Shown: in pieces, positions 24,653 to 36,658 of the stretch | Numbering within the stretch: the first letter of the stretch is position 1 | Layout: each line of letters starts with the position of its first letter | The notes under the pieces: generated by a model | The model's database searches: none | What the model was told of the DNA's origin: nothing | The model's input: the letters and a program-made list of their open reading frames with translations, nothing else | NCBI GenBank assembly: GCA_003233115.1 | Contig: QIKV01000053.1 | Coordinates: 1-49,119 of the forward strand | Direction of reading: 5' to 3' | Length of the DNA: 49,119 nt | Source of the DNA: Oceanospirillales bacterium | GTDB taxonomy: Bacteria; Pseudomonadota; Gammaproteobacteria; Xanthomonadales; SZUA-36 | Program-made: the position numbers and the translations under genes

Positions 24653-24668
24653 GTGTTTGAAAATTAGT

Positions 24669-25121
24669 ATGGGCCCATACAGACTCAAAGGTACTTCCGG
24701 TCGTGTCATCAACCAGTCATTTGCACTCGGCGAGTCGTTCGTGCTCGGGTCATCTGCAGATTGTGAAGTACAAATAGACGAACCAGGTGTTGCCCCCCAT
24801 CATGCTGAAATAACCCTGGTTGATGGTAAATTATTGTTGCTGAAGGACCTGGGATCAGCAACCGGCACCTTGCTTAACGGGGCGCCTGTGACCGAAGCAA
24901 TATTGGGCTCAGGTGATGAAATTCACATTGGTAGCTGCCGTTGGATGCTGCAGGCACCCGGGCTGCGACCGGACCGGGTGCTGACGGCTGCTACACTCAG
25001 GCAGCCCACCCGCATTTGGCCGCGTGTGCTGGTCTGGACGGTTCTGTCGGTTGCTGCAGGCGTGGTGGCCGTGCTCAGCTGGAAACCGGAGTGGCTGGCT
25101 GGCTGGCTGCCTTTTTCCTGA
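24669..25121 (+). CDS. FHA-domain protein with one membrane helix
   Basis: I choose ATG 24669 (150 residues); a TTG at 24657 would add four codons. Residues 1-92 form an FHA phosphothreonine-binding domain: FVLGSSADCEVQID (GR/S-x-x-x-C-x-I motif), APHHAEITL (conserved H) and LGSATGTLLNGAPV (the NG turn). A membrane helix lies at about 118-136 and the last few residues are probably periplasmic. It would tether a phospho-dependent interaction to the inner membrane. No kinase or phosphatase gene is in view. It is co-directional with ispF, 16 bases after its stop, and may share the operon. Confidence 0.8.
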   Translation: MGPYRLKGTSGRVINQSFALGESFVLGSSADCEVQIDEPGVAPHHAEITLVDGKLLLLKDLGSATGTLLNGAPVTEAILGSGDEIHIGSCRWMLQAPGLRPDRVLTAATLRQPTRIWPRVLVWTVLSVAAGVVAVLSWKPEWLAGWLPFS

Positions 25122-25204
25122 GTACAGGACCATTTAAGTGCTGTTTCCCACAGTCAGGATCGACTATTTTATCGAGCCCACCGTTCTGGCCCACCTACCG
25201 GTTA

Positions 25205-26437
25205 CTAATATCTGGGCAACAGCAACGTTAAGACAGAAGACACAAGCATCAAAACAACACTGACAATCAGCATCCAGATATACGAACCCAATGATTCATA
25301 CCCAATCCCGTAGGCCAGCGGCCCGGCAGAAGTACCGATCAGAAACGAGGTAAACAAAAGGCCGTAAACCTGACCGAAGTTATCCACCCCAAAATAACGA
25401 CTGGTCAGAAAAGCCAGCATGTCGAACTCCGCGCCCATGCTGAATCCGATAAATATGGCGGCGAGAAAGGCCAGTGACCCCACCGCACCGGTCGCTAACA
25501 GGCTGATGCCTGTTACGGCAATCAAAAAACTGATGACGGCAATGTACGGTGCAAAGAAACGATCAATAATATAACCGATGAGCATCCGTGCCGTGACGAT
25601 TGATAGACCCATGGTGGACATCACAAGGGCGGCATCTGCCGTTGACATGCCACGATCAGAGAGCATGGGCACCAGGTGCGACAGAACACCATAGAGACTG
25701 AAGGACAACAAGGAAAAAATAACAAATAATTGCCACAACAAGGGCTGCTTGAGCAGGGTTAATAATGGAATACTTGCAGCAAGCTGCTGCTTGATGGTTC
25801 CGTGACGAAGTTCATCATAGTCCTCGATTTCGGATTTTGACGGTGCCTCACGTAAAACGAAATAAACCAGGGGGACGGCGACGACCAGGGACACGGCGGC
25901 GAGCATGAAGTATCCCGAACGCCAGCCGTAGGAATCGATCATGTATTGCACCATTGGCGGAACATACACGAAACCCATGCCGCTGCCGCCCATGGCGATC
26001 CCCAGGGCCAGTCCGCGGTGCCGGTCAAACCAGGCGGAAATGGACCGTAGATAGGGTAGGGCATTGGCACCTGCAGCCAGTGAACCGATCAATATGAAGA
26101 GTAAATAAAAAATCCACAGCTTGTGTGCAAAGATTGGAATTAAAGCCAGCAAAACAGAGAATACTACATAGGATGGCAGTAAAATTTTCCGGCTACCAAA
26201 ACGGTCAACCAATCTGCCGATATAAGGAATCGACAGAGCAAGCGCTCCGGTGAAGCACATTAATGCCAGGCTGATTTCCGCTCGGTTCCAGCCAAATTCT
26301 TCACCCAGCGGTATCATAAATAAACCGAGTGAAGCAAAGGCAAACTGGCCCGGTCCGGTGGACATACCCACTGCGGCAGTAGCGACGATCCACCAGCCGT
26401 AATAGATCGGTTTGGAGTTTTTGGCCCGCTCAGCCAT
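25205..26437 (-). CDS. MFS transporter, oxalate/formate-antiporter-like (OFA/MCT)
   Basis: I choose ATG 26437 (410 residues), with AGGGA six bases upstream. It has twelve predicted membrane helices, beginning YYGWWIVATAAVGMSTGPGQ, the OFA/monocarboxylate opening. GRLVDRFGSRKILL between helices 2 and 3 is the MFS loop motif, and WFDRHRGLALGIAMGGSGMG is the OFA signature after helix 4. These carriers exchange or import monocarboxylates and similar organic acids. It is the last gene of the minus-strand island and adjoins the UbiD decarboxylase gene, which suggests import of the acid to be decarboxylated. The convergent gap 25122-25204 holds no clear terminator. Confidence 0.85.
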   Translation of the reverse strand: MAERAKNSKPIYYGWWIVATAAVGMSTGPGQFAFASLGLFMIPLGEEFGWNRAEISLALMCFTGALALSIPYIGRLVDRFGSRKILLPSYVVFSVLLALIPIFAHKLWIFYLLFILIGSLAAGANALPYLRSISAWFDRHRGLALGIAMGGSGMGFVYVPPMVQYMIDSYGWRSGYFMLAAVSLVVAVPLVYFVLREAPSKSEIEDYDELRHGTIKQQLAASIPLLTLLKQPLLWQLFVIFSLLSFSLYGVLSHLVPMLSDRGMSTADAALVMSTMGLSIVTARMLIGYIIDRFFAPYIAVISFLIAVTGISLLATGAVGSLAFLAAIFIGFSMGAEFDMLAFLTSRYFGVDNFGQVYGLLFTSFLIGTSAGPLAYGIGYESLGSYIWMLIVSVVLMLVSSVLTLLLPRY

Positions 26438-26502
26438 GCCAGTCCCTGGCGGCAAATATCATAGCGTCAATTCTGGTTCCTTTGCCCGGAAAGCAGGCGG
26501 CA

Positions 26503-27822
26503 TTATTTGAAGTAGTCATTCAGATCGATATCCGCCTCACCGGGTACGAGTTTTCGTTCAAACTCTGCTTCCCTGCCAAACGGCATCGTGGCGTCAATAC
26601 CCAGTCTTCCCCAGTGGTCCTTGTGCGGGTCACGATAAAAGCCTGGTACCTCATCGATTATCATTGTGCGCCGGTCGACACGACCACGGCTCAGAAACGC
26701 CCACATCACTTCGTTCATGTCCGTAATATCAATATCCTCATCCACTACGAACACGGCCTTGTTGAAATCCAGGTCCGCACCAAACGCAGCCATGATGACT
26801 TGCCGGGCATGGCCTTCATACTGCTGCCGGATTTTGATGGTAGTGTTCATGAATGCGGGAGAACAACTGACGTCGATAATGCCCGGCAATACAGCGTTTA
26901 AGTGCCGATAGATCTTTGCTGCTGTAACCGTTTCAAGCAGGGTGAGGTCCTCACTGGAGCCGCACAGGATGCTGTGAAATACCGCCTCTTTGCGCCAGTA
27001 CACGCTGGTAATGTCCACTACGTGATTTTTCGCTTCCGGCACATAGTAGCCAAGAAATTCACCAAACGGTCCTTCCGGGCGTCTTTCATTAGCCCGTATT
27101 CTGCCTTCCACAACGATCTGGGCAGCCTGGGGGATTTCCAGGTCGATAGTTCTTGCCGGGTAGCTCCAGATCGCCTCACCTGAAATCCTGGATGCCAGGG
27201 CTAACTCGCTCCAGTCCAACGGAATGGAGGCCGAGGCAGCCAGAAACAACGCGGGTGATACGCCTATCAACAAGGCCACCTCCAGTGCTTCATTTTTCGT
27301 TTCTGCCCTTCGCTGATAATCAGTCAGATCATGCGTGCTGCCTAAACGGATGCGCAACTCGTCGTCACTGACATACATGGCCCGGTGAAACGACAAATTG
27401 GGGATTTTTGTGTCGGGATCCTTTGCCAGAAAGATGGCAGAGGTAAAGTATGGGCCCGCATCTTTTTCATGGTAGCGTATCAGCGGTAGGTTGCTTAATT
27501 TGCCAGTGACCAGATCCGCAGGCGCATCGCTTGTGCTGATGCCATCCCACGACATTGACGCTGTTTCGTCCAGTAGCCTGTTCCAGGCCGGACAAAAATT
27601 TCCATCCTCGGCATGAATCAGTTCACACAAGCGGCGGCGGCTACTGAAAAGATTGGTCACTACGGGAAAGGCAGTCCCTTTTACCTGACTGAATAAAACG
27701 GCATCGTCATTCTGTCGCTGTGATTTTTTGGTAACGGCGGCAAGTTCGTATTGCGGGTCAACTGCCACAGCAACAGTTCTCAGTTCACCATCTATTTTCA
27801 ACTTATTGATATAGTTACGCAT
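26503..27822 (-). CDS. UbiD-family prenyl-FMN decarboxylase
   Basis: Protein of 439 residues. UbiD enzymes reversibly (de)carboxylate aromatic or unsaturated acids using prenylated FMN. The catalytic Glu pair is visible in RPEGPFGEFLGYY (the E-x4-E of PEGPFGE), the Arg/His cofactor region in NLSFHRAMYV, and the C-terminal FVVDEDIDITDMNEVMWA gives the metal and dimer part. The length is nearer short members (VdcC/YclC-type, about 450-475) than UbiD (about 497). No ubiX prenyltransferase gene, needed for the cofactor, lies in the window. It is flanked by a carboxylate carrier and a luciferase-like oxidoreductase gene, so a catabolic role is more likely than ubiquinone synthesis. Confidence 0.87.
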   Translation of the reverse strand: MRNYINKLKIDGELRTVAVAVDPQYELAAVTKKSQRQNDDAVLFSQVKGTAFPVVTNLFSSRRRLCELIHAEDGNFCPAWNRLLDETASMSWDGISTSDAPADLVTGKLSNLPLIRYHEKDAGPYFTSAIFLAKDPDTKIPNLSFHRAMYVSDDELRIRLGSTHDLTDYQRRAETKNEALEVALLIGVSPALFLAASASIPLDWSELALASRISGEAIWSYPARTIDLEIPQAAQIVVEGRIRANERRPEGPFGEFLGYYVPEAKNHVVDITSVYWRKEAVFHSILCGSSEDLTLLETVTAAKIYRHLNAVLPGIIDVSCSPAFMNTTIKIRQQYEGHARQVIMAAFGADLDFNKAVFVVDEDIDITDMNEVMWAFLSRGRVDRRTMIIDEVPGFYRDPHKDHWGRLGIDATMPFGREAEFERKLVPGEADIDLNDYFK

Positions 27823-27871
27823 AATAAATCCGCAGGCCTGTTGCTACGAACCACATTAGCAACAATAAGTG

Positions 27872-28870
27872 CTAGCGGAAATAGGGAATGACCTGTTCGC
27901 CGAATAAACGGATCGTTTCGCGCGGGTCGGGGCCAAGCGGGCCGCCTACCGAAACCTGTGTGACACCGGCTTGTGCCAACATCTCGATTTTTGCAATCGC
28001 GTCTTTCGGGCTACCCACCACAGCAAGCTGCATCATCTCTGGCGTTACCGCAGCCCGGGCTCCGGCGTAATCGCCCGCAGTCACCAGGCGTTGTGTTTCG
28101 GAAAAATGGGCCTGACTCAAACCGACGGTGCCCAGAGCTTCCTCGTCCAGGTAATTGCCGAAATAGGCAATGATATCTTTCAGCGTATCGGTTTTTGTGC
28201 CCTTACCGTTTTCCGAAATGGAAAACCAGGCACAACCGCAAATATCGAAGTCATTGGGGCTTTTATCGGCTTTATGCACTCCTTTCAGAATCCGTGCGGC
28301 CATCAATTTCGCCGACTCCGGTGGTGTTACCATCGGCAGGCTACCATCCCCTAGTTCGCCGCTGAGTTCCAGATCATCATGGGCAAAACCTGAGATATAG
28401 ATCGGAATTTGTTCGCGAAATGCCTTGAAACGCAAGTAACACTGATCGGACCAGTGATACACTTCGCCGTCAAATTCCGCATTTTCGCCACGCCATACCC
28501 GGCGCATTAATTTGACAGCTTCCCGGATGCGCTGCAATCGATCCGAGGTATCCAGACCCAGCCAGTTCACCATCAACTCCGTATGCATTCCAAAGCCAAT
28601 GGCAACACGGCCCTGACTGAGGTGGTCCAGTGTCGCCATAAACACCGCAATCTCACCCGGAGAAACGGCGTAAGGTTCGGTGCCGTTGGGGCCTACTACA
28701 ATGTGTTTGGTGTGCTCGGCCAAAGCTGAAATAATGGGCCAGGCGTGGTACATGAATTTATCACTTGGAAACCAGGCCTGATCAAAACCAGCCTGGTCGG
28801 CAAGTATTCCCAATTCGACAATCTCTCTCGGACTGCCCAGATGCTGAATGAGCCGGACGCTGAAACGCAT
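27872..28870 (-). CDS. Luciferase-like (LLM) oxidoreductase, Mer/F420-type
   Basis: Protein of 332 residues with a TIM-barrel LLM fold. GFDQAWFPSD, VVGPNGTEPYAVSPGEIAVF and LDHLSQGRVAIGFG resemble the group around methylene-tetrahydromethanopterin reductase, F420-dependent dehydrogenases and some FMN monooxygenases. AGVTQVSVGGPLGPDPRETI and FGEQVIPYFR at the end are also of that group. It may therefore use F420 rather than FMN, but sequence alone does not settle this. ATG 28870 has GGAG eight bases upstream. It precedes the UbiD gene in the same direction and probably acts on the same substrate. Confidence 0.83.
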   Translation of the reverse strand: MRFSVRLIQHLGSPREIVELGILADQAGFDQAWFPSDKFMYHAWPIISALAEHTKHIVVGPNGTEPYAVSPGEIAVFMATLDHLSQGRVAIGFGMHTELMVNWLGLDTSDRLQRIREAVKLMRRVWRGENAEFDGEVYHWSDQCYLRFKAFREQIPIYISGFAHDDLELSGELGDGSLPMVTPPESAKLMAARILKGVHKADKSPNDFDICGCAWFSISENGKGTKTDTLKDIIAYFGNYLDEEALGTVGLSQAHFSETQRLVTAGDYAGARAAVTPEMMQLAVVGSPKDAIAKIEMLAQAGVTQVSVGGPLGPDPRETIRLFGEQVIPYFR

Positions 28871-28909
28871 TTAGCTTGCTCCACTAAGTAGGGGGTATTG
28901 ATTTCCAGT

Positions 28910-28931
28910 TAATCATACCGTGCTAATCATA
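28910..28931. repeat. Direct repeat TAATCATA upstream of the luciferase-like gene
   Basis: TAATCATA occurs at 28910-28917 and 28924-28931, 14 bases apart start to start, about 40-60 bases before the oxidoreductase ATG. Close direct repeats at this place can bind a regulator, but no known operator is recognised. Confidence 0.3.
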
Positions 28932-29005
28932 ACTCTGATAGGCCTGGTGCACAGTTATCTGGGCAGCGCCAGGCAAGCTTCAAAACAGATGGGTTTTTGG
29001 CCCGT

Positions 29006-29500
29006 TTATTTGTTGTTGCGGGAATCAGGAGGAAGCGGCCAGTCACCCGCTTGAAAGAGGATGCGGGTCACAGTCTCCATGGTATCCTCCTTGGTCCGTA
29101 TCATGGATGAAACCTGTTCAGAATTTATTCCAAATGCGTAGCCATAGCTCAACAGTTCAGCGAATTCCTCAAATTCATAAGCCGGGTTAAAGCCTTTAGC
29201 GCGTATGGCGTGATATTCATCCAGAATTTCCGGAAATTTGTACATCACCCACCACATTACCCTGTTCTCTTCCTTTATCTCTTCGTTCTCTTCCAGCCAG
29301 AGAAAGAGCTTCAACTCGTCTGCAATTCGTTCCGCCTCGTTTTTCAAAATGTAATAGTCTTGCGGATAAAAAGGCGGACTGAAGGCGCATTTTTTGGCCT
29401 CCCCCGCAACGCATTCGCCAAATGCCGTCATCATACCGAGCATAAATGACTTACGCTCTATCATCCTGGCCGGATCTACACTTTCGCTATAGGGATTCAT
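29006..29500 (-). CDS. Hypothetical protein, acidic and alpha-helical
   Basis: Protein of 164 residues, unrecognised. It has no signal peptide or membrane helix. The middle is highly charged (ELKLFLWLEENEEIKEENR) and probably helical; aromatic residues are frequent (FYPQDYYILK, YEFEEFAELLSYGYAF). Two cysteines lie near residues 30-38. An AGG lies about nine bases before the ATG. It sits between the TonB receptor gene and the luciferase-like gene on the same strand, so a role in the same substrate pathway is possible. A cytoplasmic accessory or regulatory protein is a guess only. Confidence 0.6.
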   Translation of the reverse strand: MNPYSESVDPARMIERKSFMLGMMTAFGECVAGEAKKCAFSPPFYPQDYYILKNEAERIADELKLFLWLEENEEIKEENRVMWWVMYKFPEILDEYHAIRAKGFNPAYEFEEFAELLSYGYAFGINSEQVSSMIRTKEDTMETVTRILFQAGDWPLPPDSRNNK

Positions 29501-29553
29501 TGTTCAAGCCTGTTCCAGAAAACCTGGCTGTTGGCGGGTTTTGGCTCAGAGGA

Positions 29554-29573
29554 GTCAGGCCCGGAGGCCTGAC
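29554..29573 (-). terminator. Hairpin after the TonB receptor gene
   Basis: GTCAGGCC (29554-29561) and GGCCTGAC (29566-29573) form a perfect eight-base-pair stem with a four-base loop, 14 bases beyond the receptor stop. There is no T-run after it on the minus strand, so it is a weak intrinsic terminator at best and may instead stabilise or process the mRNA end. Confidence 0.4.
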
Positions 29574-29587
29574 CCACTGGGATTGCT

Positions 29588-32056
29588 CTAGAAGCGATAG
29601 CTGACGCTGAGCCCCAGCACACGCGGGTGCGGGCGCAGGCGAAAACCACTGACACCAAAGTTTTCCTGAGTGCCGGTGAAGTAATTTTCTTCCAACAGGT
29701 TCTGCACGTAGGCGATGAAACTGAATTTCTCCATATCGAAGCCGGCGCGCAGGTTCACGATGTTGTAATTCGGCGTACGGAAAGGGAAGCTACCGTAGGT
29801 GGCAACAGAATTACGGGGCGGAGCGCCATTGGGTGAAGGCCCGTCTGTTTGCAGGTAGGTCAAGGCCTCGATATCGGAATACTGACCATCGCGATGGATA
29901 AATCCCAATTGTGTCCAAGCGCTATTCTGGCCGATTTGCCAGTGATATTCACCATTGATATTGAAGGTGAGAGAGGGCGCCTTGGGGATGTCCAGGCCTT
30001 TCAGCGCGACCTCGAAACCGCCGGTTATCTGGGCAATGGTGTCGCTGGTAATTTCAGAGTTCAGGTAACCGATGCTGGAAGTCAGCAAAAAGTTGTCTGT
30101 GAAGGCAACCACCAGCTCCAATTCGGCGCCTGAGGCTTTAGCGGATTTAACGCTGGTAACCTGCTCAAAGTTGGATGACAGATCACCCGGTGTCAGAAAG
30201 CGAAAAGCTTCTACCTGAAGATTCGACCAGTCGAGGAAAAATACTGAACCGTTCAGCCGGATGCGGTGGTTCCATAATTCACTCTTGAATCCAAATTCAT
30301 AGTTCCAAAGGGTTTCTGCTTTGTAGGGGACACCGAATGCCGGTTGACCGGGTGCATTGGTATTATTACCCACCGCAACACCGCCGGCCTTGTAGCCTTT
30401 GGAAATGGTGCCGTAGACACTGACATCGTCGTTGACCAGATAGCGTGCCACAAAGCGGGGAGAAACATCCGAGAAATTGCCGTTTTTGCTTACCGGAGGC
30501 CGTGCGAAGTTGGTAAAGCTCTGGAAGAAATCAAAACCGGGCGGGCCGGGATAGCCGGGGGAACCCGGGAAGCAACAGGTTGGCGCAATACCCCAGGCCT
30601 TCAATTCATTGGTCACATCGTCTTTGGTATAACGCGCGCCGGCGGTCAGGTCCCATTTGTCATTCATATGCCATGTGTAGTCGGCGAAAAACGCCAAACT
30701 TGTCACGTCCCAGTTTTTATGATTCAGTGCGAGCCCCAATCCATCCGGAAAGGGTGGCAACCAACCCACGCCGCCTATGGTGGCGTATGCCTTGGTTGAA
30801 ATCGCTACGTTGTTATCCTGCTTCTGGTTATCGCTGGCATACAGAATACCGGTAGTAAAATCATAGCTGTCTTGTGAGACTTCCAGGCGCAGTTCGCTGC
30901 TCCAGGAGTTGCCCCGATAGGCGTTGGTGCGGCTCAATGTATCCGCACCACCGACGAGATCGTTATCAAATAAACGATTCAAATCCGCGTTGATGAAACC
31001 GGTGATGGATTTAATGACCATGTTGTCATTCAGGTGGTAAGCGACATTGAGGATGCCCACCAGTGAATTGTTATCCGTACGCTCGGGCAGATCGTGGCTC
31101 AGTCTGTTCTGGTTCTGTGGCCAGAAGCCGGTGCCTGGATCAATTGCCTGCGACAGGCCGAAACTATCGATGGAGTCAATGTCCAGGATACCTGAAGGTA
31201 CGTTTTCATCGGTTCCCTGTTTTTCATCACTGTAGTACAAGGAGCCCAGTATTGACAAATCATCCGTTGCATCCCACGCAGCGTGAAGCCTGAAATTCAG
31301 CATGCTGTGACCACTGTTTTTCGAACCATTGGGTGTGAAATTGTTCTCCACAGCTCCGGGGCAGGAGGCCGCACTGGCACCTTTTGCACAGGCATTTTTG
31401 ACCCAGCCACTGCTGTCTTCATAATAGAACATGCCACGCAAGCGGAAGGTGTCGGATACGGGCACGTTGAGGATGACAGTCGCATTGGATTGGTTTCCGG
31501 CGTTCGCATAGGTTTCTCCGCCGAGTCTGACCTCACCCCCGAACTCATCAGTAGGCTTCCGGGTGGTCAGGTTGAGTGCGCCACCCAATGCGTTGCGGCC
31601 GAAAAAGGTTCCCTGCGGGCCGCGCAACACTTCTACGCGCTCCATATCCGCCAAGTTGGGATTCGCGACCTGGTTGGGCACTGAGGCAACGCTGAATTCA
31701 TCCAGGTAGATGCCCACCGAATTTACGAAAGCATTTTCACCGGAGACCAGGTTGTTAATACCACGGATGGCGATACCCAGTCCGCGGCTACCCGTCTGGC
31801 CATCCTCAGTAAAACTGACATTGGGTGTGAGCGCCAGATAATCGATGGAGGATCTGATGTTTTGCCTATCCAGTGTAGCGCCGGTGAACACGGACACACT
31901 GATTGGCACTTCCTGCAGGTTCTGCTCCCGTCGTTGGGCGGTCACGGTGACTTCTTCAAGCACTGTGTCGGATTCCTCTGCAATGACAGGCGTGGAATTG
32001 AATATAAATACAGTGAGAAGAGTTAAAGGAAAGAGTGTTCTTAGTTGATTCTGCAT
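29588..32056 (-). CDS. TonB-dependent outer-membrane receptor
   Basis: I choose ATG 32056 (822 residues), with AAGGGA about six bases upstream. A signal peptide precedes VIAEESDTVLEEVTVTAQRRE, a TonB-box/plug start. The plug has NVSFTEDGQ, IAIRGINN and VEVLRGPQGTFFGRNALGGALNL, and the barrel ends in aromatic strands with a final VSYRF. This is the broad group that brings organic molecules or iron chelates through the outer membrane, close to receptors seen in Sphingomonad-type catabolic loci. One extracellular loop has a CC followed by Gly-Pro repeats (FPGSPGYPGPPGF). With the two inner-membrane carriers it suggests active uptake of one compound. Confidence 0.92.
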   Translation of the reverse strand: MQNQLRTLFPLTLLTVFIFNSTPVIAEESDTVLEEVTVTAQRREQNLQEVPISVSVFTGATLDRQNIRSSIDYLALTPNVSFTEDGQTGSRGLGIAIRGINNLVSGENAFVNSVGIYLDEFSVASVPNQVANPNLADMERVEVLRGPQGTFFGRNALGGALNLTTRKPTDEFGGEVRLGGETYANAGNQSNATVILNVPVSDTFRLRGMFYYEDSSGWVKNACAKGASAASCPGAVENNFTPNGSKNSGHSMLNFRLHAAWDATDDLSILGSLYYSDEKQGTDENVPSGILDIDSIDSFGLSQAIDPGTGFWPQNQNRLSHDLPERTDNNSLVGILNVAYHLNDNMVIKSITGFINADLNRLFDNDLVGGADTLSRTNAYRGNSWSSELRLEVSQDSYDFTTGILYASDNQKQDNNVAISTKAYATIGGVGWLPPFPDGLGLALNHKNWDVTSLAFFADYTWHMNDKWDLTAGARYTKDDVTNELKAWGIAPTCCFPGSPGYPGPPGFDFFQSFTNFARPPVSKNGNFSDVSPRFVARYLVNDDVSVYGTISKGYKAGGVAVGNNTNAPGQPAFGVPYKAETLWNYEFGFKSELWNHRIRLNGSVFFLDWSNLQVEAFRFLTPGDLSSNFEQVTSVKSAKASGAELELVVAFTDNFLLTSSIGYLNSEITSDTIAQITGGFEVALKGLDIPKAPSLTFNINGEYHWQIGQNSAWTQLGFIHRDGQYSDIEALTYLQTDGPSPNGAPPRNSVATYGSFPFRTPNYNIVNLRAGFDMEKFSFIAYVQNLLEENYFTGTQENFGVSGFRLRPHPRVLGLSVSYRF

Positions 32057-32240
32057 AGATATTCCCTTGGGTGAAATGAGCCCGATCACGGTGAGTGGAG
32101 TGTCTGAATTTAAAAAAATATGAAACCGGATTGATTGAATTAATATTGTTGCACAAGCTCCCTTTTTGGCTAGGCTGTCGTATTCAAAAGAAGTTTGCGA
32201 TTATCCGTCCGGTATATGCCGTACCTGCTTACTGCAATTT

Positions 32241-32262
32241 ATTAGTTTAAGTATATACTAAT
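32241..32262. promoter_or_regulatory. AT-rich palindrome, candidate operator
   Basis: AGTATATACT (32250-32259) is a perfect palindrome, enclosed by ATTAGT (32241-32246) and its inverse ACTAAT (32257-32262). It lies in the 284-base gap between the NSS symporter gene and the TonB receptor gene, about 185 bases before the receptor ATG. Palindromes of this size often bind dimeric regulators, but no regulator gene is adjacent. The rest of the gap is AT-rich and shows no other clear element. Confidence 0.4.
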
Positions 32263-32340
32263 TTTAAAAAACCATAGAAGCCTTTTTCCCCCTTTTGCGA
32301 CTACCGCAGCCTGCCGGATAGAGCGCAGGAGCTCGGTGGC

Positions 32341-33717
32341 TTACAGATTGACGATAAACACCCCTGCGATCGCGGCCGGCACAATAAATCGTACCAGTAC
32401 CCGCCAGCTTCGGTACCAGCGGCCATCGTTCACTTGCAGTTCGTCCAAGGTTGAAGATTTCGTCAGGCTCCAACCTGCCAGTACGGCGACCAATACCCCA
32501 CCGGCCGGCATTATGAAGTTTGACACCATAAAATCCAGCGATTGAAAAATATTGCGTTCCGCAAAGGCAGACAAAAAGTTAAGCGGATAAAATTCTTTAA
32601 GCGTGCTGAAGGAGAAGACCGTTCCGAGTCCGACGACCCACAACAGGAATATCAACAGGGCGACGATCCGGGGTCGGGATATCCCAGAGTAGTCTTCGAC
32701 TGTGGCAACAACACATTCCAGAATGGTGATCGCAGAGGTAAGCGCGGCGAAGGCCATCAGGACAAAAAACAGCGGACCCAAAATCGCGCCGCCCGGCATT
32801 TGGCCAAAAGCGATCGGCAGCGTTTTAAAAATCAGCCCCGGCCCCCCGGCGGGCGACAGTCCGTGTGCAAAAACAATCGGAAATATCGCCAGGCCGGCGA
32901 CCAGGGCGACACCACCGTCGGCGACGGCAACGATGACCGCCGCCTTGACGATGGATGATTTCCGATCCATATAGGCACCGATCGTCATCAGCACACCCAG
33001 GCCGATGCCCAGCGAGAAGAATGCCTGGCCTATGGCCAGCAGAACGGTCTGTGCGTTCAGTTTGGAAAAATCCGGAACAAATAAAAAGGCTGCACCGGCG
33101 GCAAAATCACCAGCGATCATCGCGTATATCAGGAGTACGAACAAAATGGCGAAAAGGGCGGGTGTTAACCAGCGCAGCACATTTTCGAGGCCGTTTCGTA
33201 TGCCGGCTGCCACGGTGATGGCGGTCAAGCCCAGGAAAATCAGTTGCGACACCATCATTCGGCCCGGACTGTTCATGAGCCGCCCGAGGGCTGCCGACGA
33301 CTGTTCCGGGGTGATACCGGAAAACCCGGTCGTCAGTGCTTGGTAAAAGTAGTCAATAGTCCACCCGGCTACAACACTGTAAAAACTGAGCGCCATAAAA
33401 GCACCGAAGGCCGCCATCTGGCCGTAATAGCGCCAGAGGGGGCTGATGCCCTCTCGTCCCGCCAGATTGTCCATGGACTTGACGACGCTGGCGCCGCCGC
33501 GGCGACCGATAAGGAATTCTGCAATGAGAGCGGGTATGGCAATCAGGGCAATAGCTACGACGTAGACCAGAACAAAGGCACCGCCGCCGTTTTCCCCAGC
33601 CACGTAAGTGAACTTCCAGACATTGGAGATGCCGACCGCGCTGCCTATTGCTGCGGCTAAAAACATCAGGTTGGATGACCACTTTCGTTCGCCGGCGACC
33701 TTGCTATTGCGGGTCAT
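32341..33717 (-). CDS. Sodium-dependent symporter, NSS/SNF family
   Basis: Protein of 458 residues with about eleven membrane helices, as in bacterial MhsT-like members. The N-terminal FLAAAIGSAVGISNVWKFTYVAGENGGGAF (split helix 1: GSAVG, NVWKF; and GENGGGAF) is the sodium- and substrate-binding signature; Lys replaces the usual Arg after the Trp. FSLGIGLGVLMTIGAYM is the helix 6 region. Known members move amino acids or amines with sodium. It stands between the aldo/keto reductase gene and the TonB receptor gene on the same strand. The substrate is unknown and may be the compound handled by this island. Confidence 0.87.
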   Translation of the reverse strand: MTRNSKVAGERKWSSNLMFLAAAIGSAVGISNVWKFTYVAGENGGGAFVLVYVVAIALIAIPALIAEFLIGRRGGASVVKSMDNLAGREGISPLWRYYGQMAAFGAFMALSFYSVVAGWTIDYFYQALTTGFSGITPEQSSAALGRLMNSPGRMMVSQLIFLGLTAITVAAGIRNGLENVLRWLTPALFAILFVLLIYAMIAGDFAAGAAFLFVPDFSKLNAQTVLLAIGQAFFSLGIGLGVLMTIGAYMDRKSSIVKAAVIVAVADGGVALVAGLAIFPIVFAHGLSPAGGPGLIFKTLPIAFGQMPGGAILGPLFFVLMAFAALTSAITILECVVATVEDYSGISRPRIVALLIFLLWVVGLGTVFSFSTLKEFYPLNFLSAFAERNIFQSLDFMVSNFIMPAGGVLVAVLAGWSLTKSSTLDELQVNDGRWYRSWRVLVRFIVPAAIAGVFIVNL

Positions 33718-33794
33718 GGATAAGCTGGCAATCTGTGTGGGCTATTCATTTTCAACATTGTGATTTGGGTTCATGCCTGTTCTGATCTTCTTGG

Positions 33795-34826
33795 TCAAGC
33801 GTGTAAGTTCGTTTTGATAATGCCCGCATGCGGACTGCTGGAATCCCGTTCCAAATCGTACATATCACCCGGCGGGACTGACTGAGATTGGATCAGATCC
33901 GTGAGCGCCTGTCGATCCTCCGTGTCGAGATTCAGCGTACTCAGTCCGACATTTTCTCTGGCCCGGGATTTGCTGCCGATACCGAGTATGACTGCAGCGA
34001 CAGCAGGCTGATCGAGCACCCAACGCGCGGCAATTGCCCCGATCGACGTCTGGTGTCTGGCAGCGATCCGGGCGAGCAATTTCAGCAGCTTCTGAAATGC
34101 ACCCCAGCCCCCGTATTCATCGATGATGAGCCGGTATTTCTGCAACGAGCGGTTCATGCTGGCAGGACAGGCGATGCCAAGATATTTTTCGGTCAGGAAG
34201 CCGCCAGCCAGTGCTCCGTACGGCAGCAAGGCAATGCCAGATTTTGCAGCGAAGCCAGACATTTGTTTCTCGGGGCGCCGGTCAAGCAGAGAATACTGTG
34301 CCTGTATGGATATGATACTGGCGCCACTCGCCACTATTTCGCGTACATGCGCCGTGTCGAAATTGGTTAGGCCCAGCAAATGAATTTTCCCCACCTCCTG
34401 TGCCCTCACCAGGCGCTCTGTCACACGCTCCAGTCCCGGCGTCTCGTAGTTCCACCAGTGGTATTGCAACAGGTCAAGCCGCTCGACCCCCAGGCGGGTC
34501 AGTGAGCGGTCAACTGCGGCATCAATGTCTTTGCTGGTCAATTCATGCAGGCTATCCCGGTCCGGTGCGTACTTGGTGTGGATCTGAATGCTGTGCGGAT
34601 CGCTGAGGCTACGACGAAAATTGCCCAGGGTCTCCTCGACCCCGATATAAATGTCGGCGCAGTCAAAAGTCGTGAAACCATGATCAACTAACTCGGCGAA
34701 AATCCGGTGAGTTTTCTTTTCAGAGTCCGGTCCGCCACCGTGATCCGGTGTCAACTGCCAGCAACCGTTGATGACTTGCGCTATCGAATAAGCCGGTGTG
34801 AGCTTAAATCGCCTGATCTTACTCAT
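33795..34826 (-). CDS. Aldo/keto reductase
   Basis: I choose ATG 34826 (MSKIRRFKLTPAYSI..., 343 residues), which overlaps the TIGR04076 stop by eight bases; an ORF start at 34943 lies inside that gene. It is an NADPH-dependent carbonyl reductase fold: FTTFDCADIYIG contains the Asp and Tyr, HTKYAP the Lys, and QYHWWN the His of the catalytic tetrad. GLTNFDTAHV, LLPYGALAGGFL and ILGIGSKSRARENV give the C-terminal cofactor site. It probably reduces an aldehyde or ketone in the island's pathway. The tight pairing with the TIGR04076 gene is a recurring arrangement. Confidence 0.87.
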   Translation of the reverse strand: MSKIRRFKLTPAYSIAQVINGCWQLTPDHGGGPDSEKKTHRIFAELVDHGFTTFDCADIYIGVEETLGNFRRSLSDPHSIQIHTKYAPDRDSLHELTSKDIDAAVDRSLTRLGVERLDLLQYHWWNYETPGLERVTERLVRAQEVGKIHLLGLTNFDTAHVREIVASGASIISIQAQYSLLDRRPEKQMSGFAAKSGIALLPYGALAGGFLTEKYLGIACPASMNRSLQKYRLIIDEYGGWGAFQKLLKLLARIAARHQTSIGAIAARWVLDQPAVAAVILGIGSKSRARENVGLSTLNLDTEDRQALTDLIQSQSVPPGDMYDLERDSSSPHAGIIKTNLHA

Positions 34827-35172
34827 TGCCTGCCTCGCCCGGTGGTAAACCGGTCGTCTCATGGTGTCGAAACGTCGTTTTGCCGGTACGTATAATGCGG
34901 AAGCGGGCGGTGCAATACGGATCGGGGCAGGCGACTTCCGCATCCGTCGTCATCCAGTCGTTCATGTCTGTCATGCGTTGTTTTGCCGGCAACAAGGGCA
35001 AAAGTGCAGCCAGCGCGTAGATGGAAAAGGGCTGCCCGTCCGGGAAATTCAGGTTTTCACCCGATAACTCGAAGTAGTCCCCAACCTTGTGGTTGCAAAC
35101 CATCCCGTCCTGGTCACCGACAACTTCGATGCGCAGATCCCAGAGTTCGAATTCATCACAAATGCCAGTCAT
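34819..35172 (-). CDS. TIGR04076 family protein
   Basis: Protein of 117 residues. CNHKVGDYFEL, SIYALAALLPLLPAKQR, DWMTTD and VACPDPYCTARFRI are the conserved blocks of this family. Three cysteines (26, 82, 87) are candidates for metal binding or redox chemistry. The family has no known function to my knowledge, but it commonly lies beside aldo/keto reductase and similar redox genes, as here, where its stop overlaps the reductase start. No signal peptide is seen, so it is probably cytoplasmic. The 161-base gap upstream (35173-35333) holds no recognisable element. Confidence 0.8.
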   Translation of the reverse strand: MTGICDEFELWDLRIEVVGDQDGMVCNHKVGDYFELSGENLNFPDGQPFSIYALAALLPLLPAKQRMTDMNDWMTTDAEVACPDPYCTARFRIIRTGKTTFRHHETTGLPPGEAGNE

Positions 35173-35333
35173 GTCAAGTTTTCCGGTCGCCGTCGATTTT
35201 GATGTGCATCATGATGCAACCTCTACAGCCAAAAGAAAAGGGCTGGCGTGTGCAGGCGAACAGATGACCTTGCGTGAATCACGAAGTGCTGATCATGACG
35301 GCTGGTCCGCGTGTTGGCGGGACACCGCGGACA

Positions 35334-36023
35334 TCAATATTTGATATCGTCCCTGCCCACGGTTTCGCCAATATGTCCAACCCGCTGACCCATGGTATAA
35401 AATTCCCCGCTCCCGGCCGTCATACCGAAAAATGGAACCCTGGGAACGATCAGCCGGCCGTTCTCATCACAAACCCCCTCGAGTACCGTTGTCGCAACGA
35501 CATCTGCAAAGAAAACGGTGCGTCGAGGTGGGACCGAAATCGTATTGAAAACCCTGCATTCGACCTGGATGGGTGCCTCCATTACGGTCGGCGCACTAAC
35601 CACCTGCGCTTTTCCTGCAGTCAATTTTGAAAGCGCATATTTATCGCCTACTTTGCTGGAGTGCATGTCTACGATATCAAAAGCAGTGACCATTTCAGCA
35701 AGCGGAACATTCAAGACAAACTCTTTATGCAGCTTGATCAGATCACCGGCAACGTGGTAATCCGCCACACTGATCCCGATTTGGGGAGGCTCCCCTTCAA
35801 GGACAAAGGTCCATACAACTGAAATTTCGTTTGGGCCCCCGGGTTTTCCATTTACCGTTAACAGGATGGCCGGCACAGGAGGAATCATGGGTCCGTTTTC
35901 AGCGAGCCTGACGCGTTTCTCATGCCTGCGGTCCGCAGCAAACAGATTCGTGATACCGCCCCCGCCGAGGCCGGCCATGATGACCGGAAAAACAGTATTA
36001 TTGATAAAAATACGACGCTTCAT
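35334..36023 (-). CDS. Flavin-reductase-fold protein with Tat-like signal
   Basis: Protein of 229 residues. From about residue 45 it has the flavin reductase (DIM6/NTAB) FMN-binding fold: PAILLTVNG, NEISVVWTFVLEGEPPQIGISV, KEFVLNVPLAE, and VPPRRTVFFADVVAT. The N-terminus is unusual: MKRRIFINNTVF has paired Arg followed by a hydrophobic stretch and LFAA, resembling a twin-arginine export signal. A cofactor-loaded flavoprotein would need Tat for export. GGAG lies ahead of the ATG, which overlaps the upstream metalloprotein stop as ATGA. It may supply reduced flavin or act as a periplasmic reductase; that part is inference. Confidence 0.78.
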   Translation of the reverse strand: MKRRIFINNTVFPVIMAGLGGGGITNLFAADRRHEKRVRLAENGPMIPPVPAILLTVNGKPGGPNEISVVWTFVLEGEPPQIGISVADYHVAGDLIKLHKEFVLNVPLAEMVTAFDIVDMHSSKVGDKYALSKLTAGKAQVVSAPTVMEAPIQVECRVFNTISVPPRRTVFFADVVATTVLEGVCDENGRLIVPRVPFFGMTAGSGEFYTMGQRVGHIGETVGRDDIKY

Positions 36024-36559
36024 GATATTCTCCAGAGATTCATACGTAAGTGCCAGGTCGGCTGTTGCTTTGGGTTAATTAGTTTTTTTTGTAGCAGCCA
36101 GTGCAGGGCATCGTCTGCGTCCTGTTCAAACCAGGCCTGTGCGGAGCCAAGCCTGAAGGTATAGCCCCAGCGATCCATGTCTTCGAACATGCGCTGTCTG
36201 CCACACCCGCCGATCTGGTCTGCCAGCAGGATCTGCAGATAACAAACCGCGTTCTCCTCATCATAGTCACCACCTGCATCGGTATGGATATGTTGGCGCC
36301 GGGCCTGGTCCATACACACGTAGTGGCAGGTTTCGTGGAGAATGGAATGCACGGGCGTATCCGCCCTGGCGAGTAGTTGGTTGCCTACCAGGCCAGCCTC
36401 TTCATCACCCCAGTAGCTCCCGGGTATATCGTCGTGTGGCCCTGTTTTTTGGAGTGACAAACCAAAAGCTGCCAACAGGCCTGAGATGGACTTGAAGTCA
36501 ATATCCTGGAGGCGCAGCACTTTATTGTTGATGTGGGCGTTGGTGGTTGGTTTACTCAC
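36020..36559 (-). CDS. HExxH zinc-metalloprotein, probable small peptidase
   Basis: I choose GTG 36559 (179 residues, VSKPTTNAHI...). A start at 36604 would leave only a few bases to the divergent kinase gene. HSILHETCHYVCMD holds an HExxH zinc motif (75-79), and the DYDEENAVCYLQ stretch about 22 residues later could give the third ligand (Glu 101/102), as in gluzincins. No signal peptide is seen. Cysteines are frequent (78, 82, 106, 119). The function is unknown; it might process a partner protein. Its ATGA overlap with the flavin-reductase gene suggests a joint role. It is the first gene of the minus-strand island. Confidence 0.65.
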   Translation of the reverse strand: MSKPTTNAHINNKVLRLQDIDFKSISGLLAAFGLSLQKTGPHDDIPGSYWGDEEAGLVGNQLLARADTPVHSILHETCHYVCMDQARRQHIHTDAGGDYDEENAVCYLQILLADQIGGCGRQRMFEDMDRWGYTFRLGSAQAWFEQDADDALHWLLQKKLINPKQQPTWHLRMNLWRIS

Positions 36560-36658
36560 GAGCGGGCCCCAAGGTATTACTGACAGAATATGGGAAAATA
36601 GCACGTCTGCGCTATTATGCGGGTGTTGATACAGCCTGCAAGATATTCAGAGAGGAAA

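Follow-up and report, generated by a model that had tools for sequence, protein, structure and literature searches.

On sequence comparison, nine consecutive minus-strand genes (A to I) in the assembly of an Oceanospirillales bacterium (GCA_003233115.1, here G000) form a bounded, recurring island of a patchwork catabolic kind, and not a categorically new system. The genes lie in positions 1 to 49,119 of contig QIKV01000053.1, a stretch analysed as a whole and referred to as the window, and they encode a TonB-dependent receptor, two inner-membrane carriers, a UbiD-family decarboxylase (B), an LLM oxidoreductase (C) and four further proteins. The sequence-only reading had joined ten genes here into a single uptake-and-decarboxylation system. 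All ten open reading frames (ORFs, A to J, all on the minus strand between 25205 and 36604) are real and the family names of eight (A to C and E to I) are backed by profile searches, but the set comprises nine genes, with J excluded. That import and decarboxylation belong to one system remains the likeliest reading, because other genomes carry most of these genes as a group. Our leading interpretation, held tentatively, is that A to I represent a horizontally distributed catabolic island whose substrate is most likely a heteroaromatic acid, preferably one with a ring N-H.

We searched 151 genomes, G000 counted in, for relatives of these genes. B was recovered in five genomes (E 1e-60) and C in the same five (E 1e-30); D was found in three, and I in the same three. 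Comparison of A to J by tblastn with 15 loci, three of them repeats of others, revealed eight genes (H-G-F-E-D-C-B-A) collinear at 80-92% identity in G014, which belongs to a different genus from the window's genome. Elsewhere the search that the sequence-only reading had proposed returned only smaller sets, with identities of 52-92%: core genes present twice in G006 (52-88% identity, one copy broken, the other with open frames up to the contig end that cuts it); G024 has A-B-C-E, and G011 has A, B and C, with B only 53% identical. J occurred in none of the 15 loci. The flanks of the recurring blocks differ from those in the window, so chance clustering is unlikely. Two of the copies are interrupted: B of G014 (L014, 17704-19019) is split over two frames near residue 50, with a 54-residue piece at 70%, through a frame change in the genome or its assembly, and one G006 copy (L016, G006:C66, 485-6715) has C and D broken and the TonB gene cut short, owing to decay after duplication or to assembly error.

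A pattern scan of a genome collection yielded eight loci with relatives of B, three of which were the G006, G014 and G024 contigs again. The further five (L024-L028) hold an OFA carrier with a distant NSS symporter in a Halieaceae metagenome-assembled genome (MAG), an NSS symporter in the SI037 MAG, and other genes in the RYN_607 and Rhodospirillaceae MAGs; the remaining one lies at a contig end. In the Rhodospirillaceae locus L027 (10001-15843) hydantoinase A and B genes and a gene of the arylmalonate-decarboxylase family come after a 59% identical UbiD gene, a different setting for the same UbiD clade. In G024 another UbiD, with 33% identity to B, adjoins a gene for a thiamine diphosphate (ThDP) enzyme (L019, G024:C211, 7657-10684).

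The boundary of the island was set by J, the HExxH gene that had been counted as a member. J was present in 31 of the 41 genomes searched, its own included, over several families of the order, and this search did not find it in three island genomes (G011, G014 and G024). We compared the surroundings of J in seven genomes (G002, G004, G005, G006, G007, G018 and G019; L083-L089), none of which carries the island at this site. In five of them (G004, G005, G006, G007 and G019) the window gene closest to J is the FHA-domain gene, at a distance of 96 bp in G005 and ~1.2 kb in G019 and with matched segments 25 bp apart in G004; the G002 contig stops before it would reach FHA, and no FHA match was obtained in G018. 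G006 has core genes on a different contig and an FHA-J site free of the island. Because J is widespread and adjoins FHA where the island is absent, A to I read as a ~10.9-kb insertion between FHA and J, and membership of J was rejected; J is itself an undescribed, widely kept HExxH protein. The contents of the FHA-J interval vary between relatives, with one short gene, GNAT acetyltransferase-like by eye, in G006 and G007 (L086 and L084). Base composition was uninformative as a sign of foreign origin, GC content being 0.523 in the island vs 0.528 and 0.544 in the flanks.

We next consider the decarboxylase, on which the choice of substrate chiefly bears. B matches PF20695, PF01977 and PF20696, scores 322 bits against TIGR00148 (cut-off 245) and has the catalytic residues R147, E250 and E255. 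These three are kept in all 15 rows of B's clade within an alignment of 19 rows (five clade rows came from 383 matching plasmid records, of which 20 were listed). Among solved structures, HmfF (6h6v, 3e-65), E. coli UbiD (4e-46) and AnInD (7p9q, 2e-45) are the nearest. By alignment, HmfF Arg304 is Thr in B. The column of the HmfF specificity His (H296 in the count of 6h6v, H297 in PMC7976604) holds Asp292 in B, and the 14 clade rows that reach it have Asp (11) or Glu (3). AnInD Asp169, which binds the indole N-H according to the available text of PMC8988006, aligns with Gly. Because the specificity residues of HmfF and AnInD are not kept, neither 2,5-furandicarboxylic acid nor indole-3-carboxylate is favoured as the substrate of B. 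HudA provides a parallel for the column: its N318 is the equivalent of the HmfF specificity His and contacts an azole nitrogen, and in the part of PMC7976604 available, pyrrole-2-carboxylate is fully decarboxylated only by wild-type HudA and its N318D variant. The acidic residue at 292 would thus suit a ring-NH acid.

The LLM protein C had been described as Mer-like, which holds for its score and not for its active site. Mer structures are the nearest solved ones (1f07 at 7e-41), and C reaches 182 bits against TIGR03555, below the cut-off of 349. We aligned ten LLM sequences with 1f07 (the five C proteins, four of five second LLMs introduced below, and one from Rhodococcus), transferring the residue numbers of jMer (PMC11094777) by alignment. 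Mer Glu6 is Arg in all ten rows, Asp96 is Thr or Ser in all ten, and Gln178 is Phe or Met in all ten; Val62, an F420 contact, is Gly in nine, with Val kept in Rhodococcus. C itself has Arg, Thr, Phe and Gly at these four positions, as does the second LLM. The accessible text of PMC11094777 reports 0.4% turnover for Mer Glu6Gln and that small residues at position 62 do not reach F420. With the Mer catalytic residues replaced, C is not expected to be a methylene-tetrahydromethanopterin reductase, and we rejected it as a true Mer on the loss of both Glu6 and Asp96. Gly at the Val62 contact weighs against F420 binding by C, although it is not decisive.

Three plasmid records matched C at E 1e-20, one from Halobellus and two from Rhodococcus. 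The Halobellus match was set aside, being an ordinary Mer locus by annotation. On the Rhodococcus plasmids the gene for an LLM 30% identical to C is accompanied by a pair of TIGR04076 genes and by genes for a flavin reductase and a short-chain dehydrogenase/reductase (SDR); their TIGR04076 proteins are 31-38% identical to H over 61-83 residues, and the flavin reductase showed no match to I.

C has a constant companion. Each of the five C-bearing genomes encodes, on another contig, a further LLM (the second LLM) with 51-53% identity to C, and neither protein was found in the other 146 genomes at E 1e-30. The probability of so exact a match of the two sets by chance is 5.9e-6 within 31 same-family genomes and 1.7e-6 if 39 are counted, uncorrected for relatedness. 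The surroundings of the second LLM vary in content and include an NSS symporter, a dehydratase-like pyridoxal phosphate (PLP) enzyme, aminotransferases, a TonB receptor, an indolepyruvate oxidoreductase pair and two amidohydrolases whose best model, Xaa-Pro dipeptidase, is below its cut-off. A further block, encoding an aldehyde dehydrogenase, an aminotransferase, a CN-hydrolase, a flavin oxidase, a DUF819 protein and a ThDP enzyme, comes after A in G014, adjoins the second LLM in G006 and is found mostly on a short contig in G024; in G069, of another family, it adjoins a TonB receptor 39-41% like E. Its CN-hydrolase occurs at 82% identity or more in four of the 151 genomes, three of which are island genomes. 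G006 also has a paralogous version (L117, G006:C48, 1319-15039), whose oxidase genes are 54% and 57% identical to those of the other block and whose CN-hydrolase is split over two frames.

Both cofactors that the proteins might require were sought across the genomes. There is no ubiX in the window, as the sequence-only reading had pointed out, and prenylated flavin mononucleotide (prenyl-FMN) can come from the UbiX at G000:C44:15330-15869, the sole match in that genome, near another UbiD. UbiX matches were also obtained in G006, G011 and G014; UbiX adjoins the B homolog in G011 and lies ~6 kb from it in RYN_607. The search for F420 genes, suggested alongside that for ubiX, succeeded in four of the five island genomes but not in G000, where CofE, CofD and CofH gave no match (assembly 94.7% complete). 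CofE is present in ten of the 151 genomes, and its overlap with the island has a chance of 0.011-0.027 within the family, uncorrected for relatedness. CofD was found in the same four of the five island genomes asked, though this Pfam family also matches in E. coli, and CofH in seven of ten genomes asked, the same four included. At one locus (L036) CofE and CofD stand side by side, followed by a frame read as CofC. The F420 genes fall within 10 kb on one contig in G006, G011 and G024 and on two contigs in G014; given this clustering, one assembly gap might explain G000, or G000 lacks F420.

The other products of the island are listed with their coordinates in Table 1. Curated Pfam cut-offs were exceeded for MFS, UbiD (three domains), LLM, TonB receptor, NSS, aldo/keto reductase and Flavin_Reduct, and NCBIfam cut-offs for TIGR00148, the NSS model NF037979 and TIGR04076. 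The NCBIfam models behind the finer names of A, C and E (OFA/lactate, Mer and siderophore receptor) all scored below their cut-offs, the best for A being SfMCT and TIGR00890 and the best for E the siderophore receptor; D and J matched nothing in the Pfam and NCBIfam profile searches. Neighbouring genes are 47-251 bp apart or overlap on a single strand (with the start that we chose for G, at 34826, it overlaps H by 8 bp); A to I are a putative operon.

Table 1 Coordinates and assignments of the island genes and of the flanking gene J in the window.
Feature	Position	Strand or extent	Assignment	Evidence
Island A-I	25122..36019	~10.9 kb	Insertion bounded by FHA-domain gene (24657-25121) and J (36020-36604)	Flanks are non-members
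A	25205..26455	-	MFS transporter, OFA/monocarboxylate type	Pfam MFS_1 1e-50; conserved next to B
B	26503..27822	-	UbiD-family prenyl-FMN decarboxylase, HmfF-related	R147, E250, E255; Asp292 in specificity column
C	27872..28870	-	LLM oxidoreductase, Mer-like in score	Arg where Mer has catalytic Glu6
D	29006..29500	-	Orphan, 164 aa	Predicted all-helical (weak model)
E	29588..32089	-	TonB-dependent receptor	Pfam barrel and plug; conserved next to core
F	32341..33717	-	NSS sodium symporter	Pfam SNF, NF037979; 89% in G014, same place
G	33795..34826	-	Aldo/keto reductase	Pfam; longest ORF reaches 34943, likelier start 34826
H	34819..35172	-	TIGR04076 family	NCBIfam 66.6 bits, cut-off 33
I	35334..36023	-	Flavin-reductase-fold, flavoredoxin-like protein	Twin-arginine start; 4-bp overlap with J's stop
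J	36020-36604	-	HExxH-motif protein	No Pfam or NCBIfam match

Among the small proteins, D gave no sequence match in the Protein Data Bank (PDB) better than E 1.2 and no plasmid match, and in 369 genomes of the class it was found only in the window itself, a broken 43-residue match (E 0.005) being set aside. Its predicted model was too weak for a fold to be read (predicted local distance difference test score 59.6, from 4 sequences), and Foldseek matched it to no PDB entry at E 0.001 or better. Our literature search found no described function for D or for the LLM subgroup of C, and for the TIGR04076 family a redox or iron-cluster role is suspected, in the accessible text of one paper. I has flavoredoxins as its nearest relatives, and the twin arginines of its putative Tat-like start are kept in all three copies.

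From these assignments we can sketch a route in which import and decarboxylation would follow from family membership, and for which we infer the operon, the substrate, the sequence of reactions, which cofactor C uses and what D, H and I do. The receptor E would carry a small compound across the outer membrane, and at the inner membrane F may take an amino-type form and A the acid form. B, with prenyl-FMN made by UbiX encoded on another contig, would then remove CO2 from an aromatic acid, likeliest a heteroaromatic one, the preferred candidate being a ring N-H acid that Asp292 could bind. C, aided by I, H and D, might oxidise or reduce the product and perhaps open its ring, broadly as in the Rut and trigonelline pathways, and G would reduce a carbonyl product. 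The second LLM locus, with its transport and amino-acid genes, probably feeds or completes this route, as does the block of aminotransferase, ThDP enzyme, aldehyde dehydrogenase and CN-hydrolase present in three of the five island genomes.

We weighed this interpretation against three others. Were the same catabolic island to act on an acid lacking ring nitrogen (phenolic, furan or alpha,beta-unsaturated), an option that the sequence-only reading leaves room for and that we consider possible but doubtful, HmfF as the nearest solved relative of B and the resemblance of A to monocarboxylate carriers would both be accommodated. Asp at the 292 column is moreover common to B, E. coli UbiD (by pairwise alignment) and the other UbiD encoded by G000, which means that B could suit a phenolic OH too, and E. 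coli UbiD acts on a hydroxybenzoate; for this reason we withdrew Asp292 as proof of a ring-NH substrate. However, the replacement of the HmfF His by Asp and of Arg304 by Thr speaks against such acids, and the NSS symporters, aminotransferases and dehydratase-like PLP enzyme nearby or in the partner loci point to amino-type compounds. It is unlikely, in turn, that the system consists of E-D-C-B-A alone, with F, G, H and I as independent accessory genes that chanced to be inserted along with it: among the loci examined, G000 and G014 are the sole cases of F-G-H next to the core, and in G014 and G006 I is away from both the core and C, but the order H to A is collinear in G014 even though its genus differs, I and D share their distribution, and TIGR04076 recurs beside the related Rhodococcus LLM. 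We regard the reverse or biosynthetic direction, with carboxylation or tailoring of a secreted metabolite for which E is a siderophore-type receptor, as highly improbable. UbiD reactions are reversible (PMC8988006, in the portion available) and the best NCBIfam model for E names a siderophore receptor, yet no synthetase or synthase gene occurs among the island ORFs, three transporters are of import type, and the neighbours in the plasmid loci are catabolic.

Several further observations, together with the shared Asp column and the scattered positions of H-G-F and I just described, weigh against a nine-gene island for a ring-NH acid. Tree position is not always a guide to UbiD specificity (PMC7976604, available text), and C was not found by tblastn in the five further UbiD loci. 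G024 has an opposite-strand gene, an SDR by eye, at the place expected for D, and no UbiX in its assembly. The close CN-hydrolase of the partner block was not found in G000 (no match) or in G011 (best 31%). All five island genomes are assemblies of ~90 to 300 contigs.

What began as ten neighbouring genes is now a nine-gene island that has defined boundaries, recurs in relatives and co-occurs with a partner locus, and its predicted substrate can be tested on one purified enzyme. We found no paper describing this gene set in a literature search that left most subscription journals outside. A stronger claim would be that a prenyl-FMN decarboxylase of new specificity acts on a ring-NH heteroaromatic acid whose ring is then opened by an Arg6-class, Mer-like LLM using F420 or FMN, with the two LLM paralogs always together, and that this is an undescribed pathway; we consider this improbable, though if true it would provide a concrete task for F420 in Gammaproteobacteria. 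Why Proteobacteria make F420 is named as an open question in the available text of a review (PMC8498797); F420 genes tend to occur in island genomes (four of five).

Parts of the island have counterparts in known systems. B has the UbiD fold and R-E-E triad of HmfF, AnInD and HudA, but Asp and Gly replace the HmfF His and AnInD Asp169, and its clade has stretches of its own, such as LRxRLGSTHD and FYRDPHKDHWGR. C has Mer as its nearest solved structures and differs from it at Glu6, Asp96, Gln178 and Val62, all replaced in both C and the second LLM. The five plasmid loci with B-clade UbiD that we opened, of 383 records matched, resemble the island in layout: these Burkholderiaceae and Rhizobiaceae/Paracoccaceae UbiD-UbiX loci carry a same-clade UbiD 49-55% identical to B, with UbiX adjacent and an FAD oxidoreductase in all five and, as in the G014 block, a ThDP enzyme and aldehyde dehydrogenase near in four. 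They use ABC transport in place of the TonB/NSS/OFA set, however, and the annotation of the stretches seen includes neither an LLM nor a TIGR04076 gene. Because the ThDP enzymes of these loci are only 25-29% like the G014 and G006 ones, the resemblance is in layout and does not extend to close orthologs. With the two-component LLM ring-opening pathways of Rut and trigonelline breakdown, the wider gene set shares an LLM with a putative flavin-reductase-fold partner, a hydrolase, an aldehyde dehydrogenase and transport genes, and the window's island is set apart from them by its UbiD step, its TonB/NSS/OFA uptake, its TIGR04076 protein and the orphan D.

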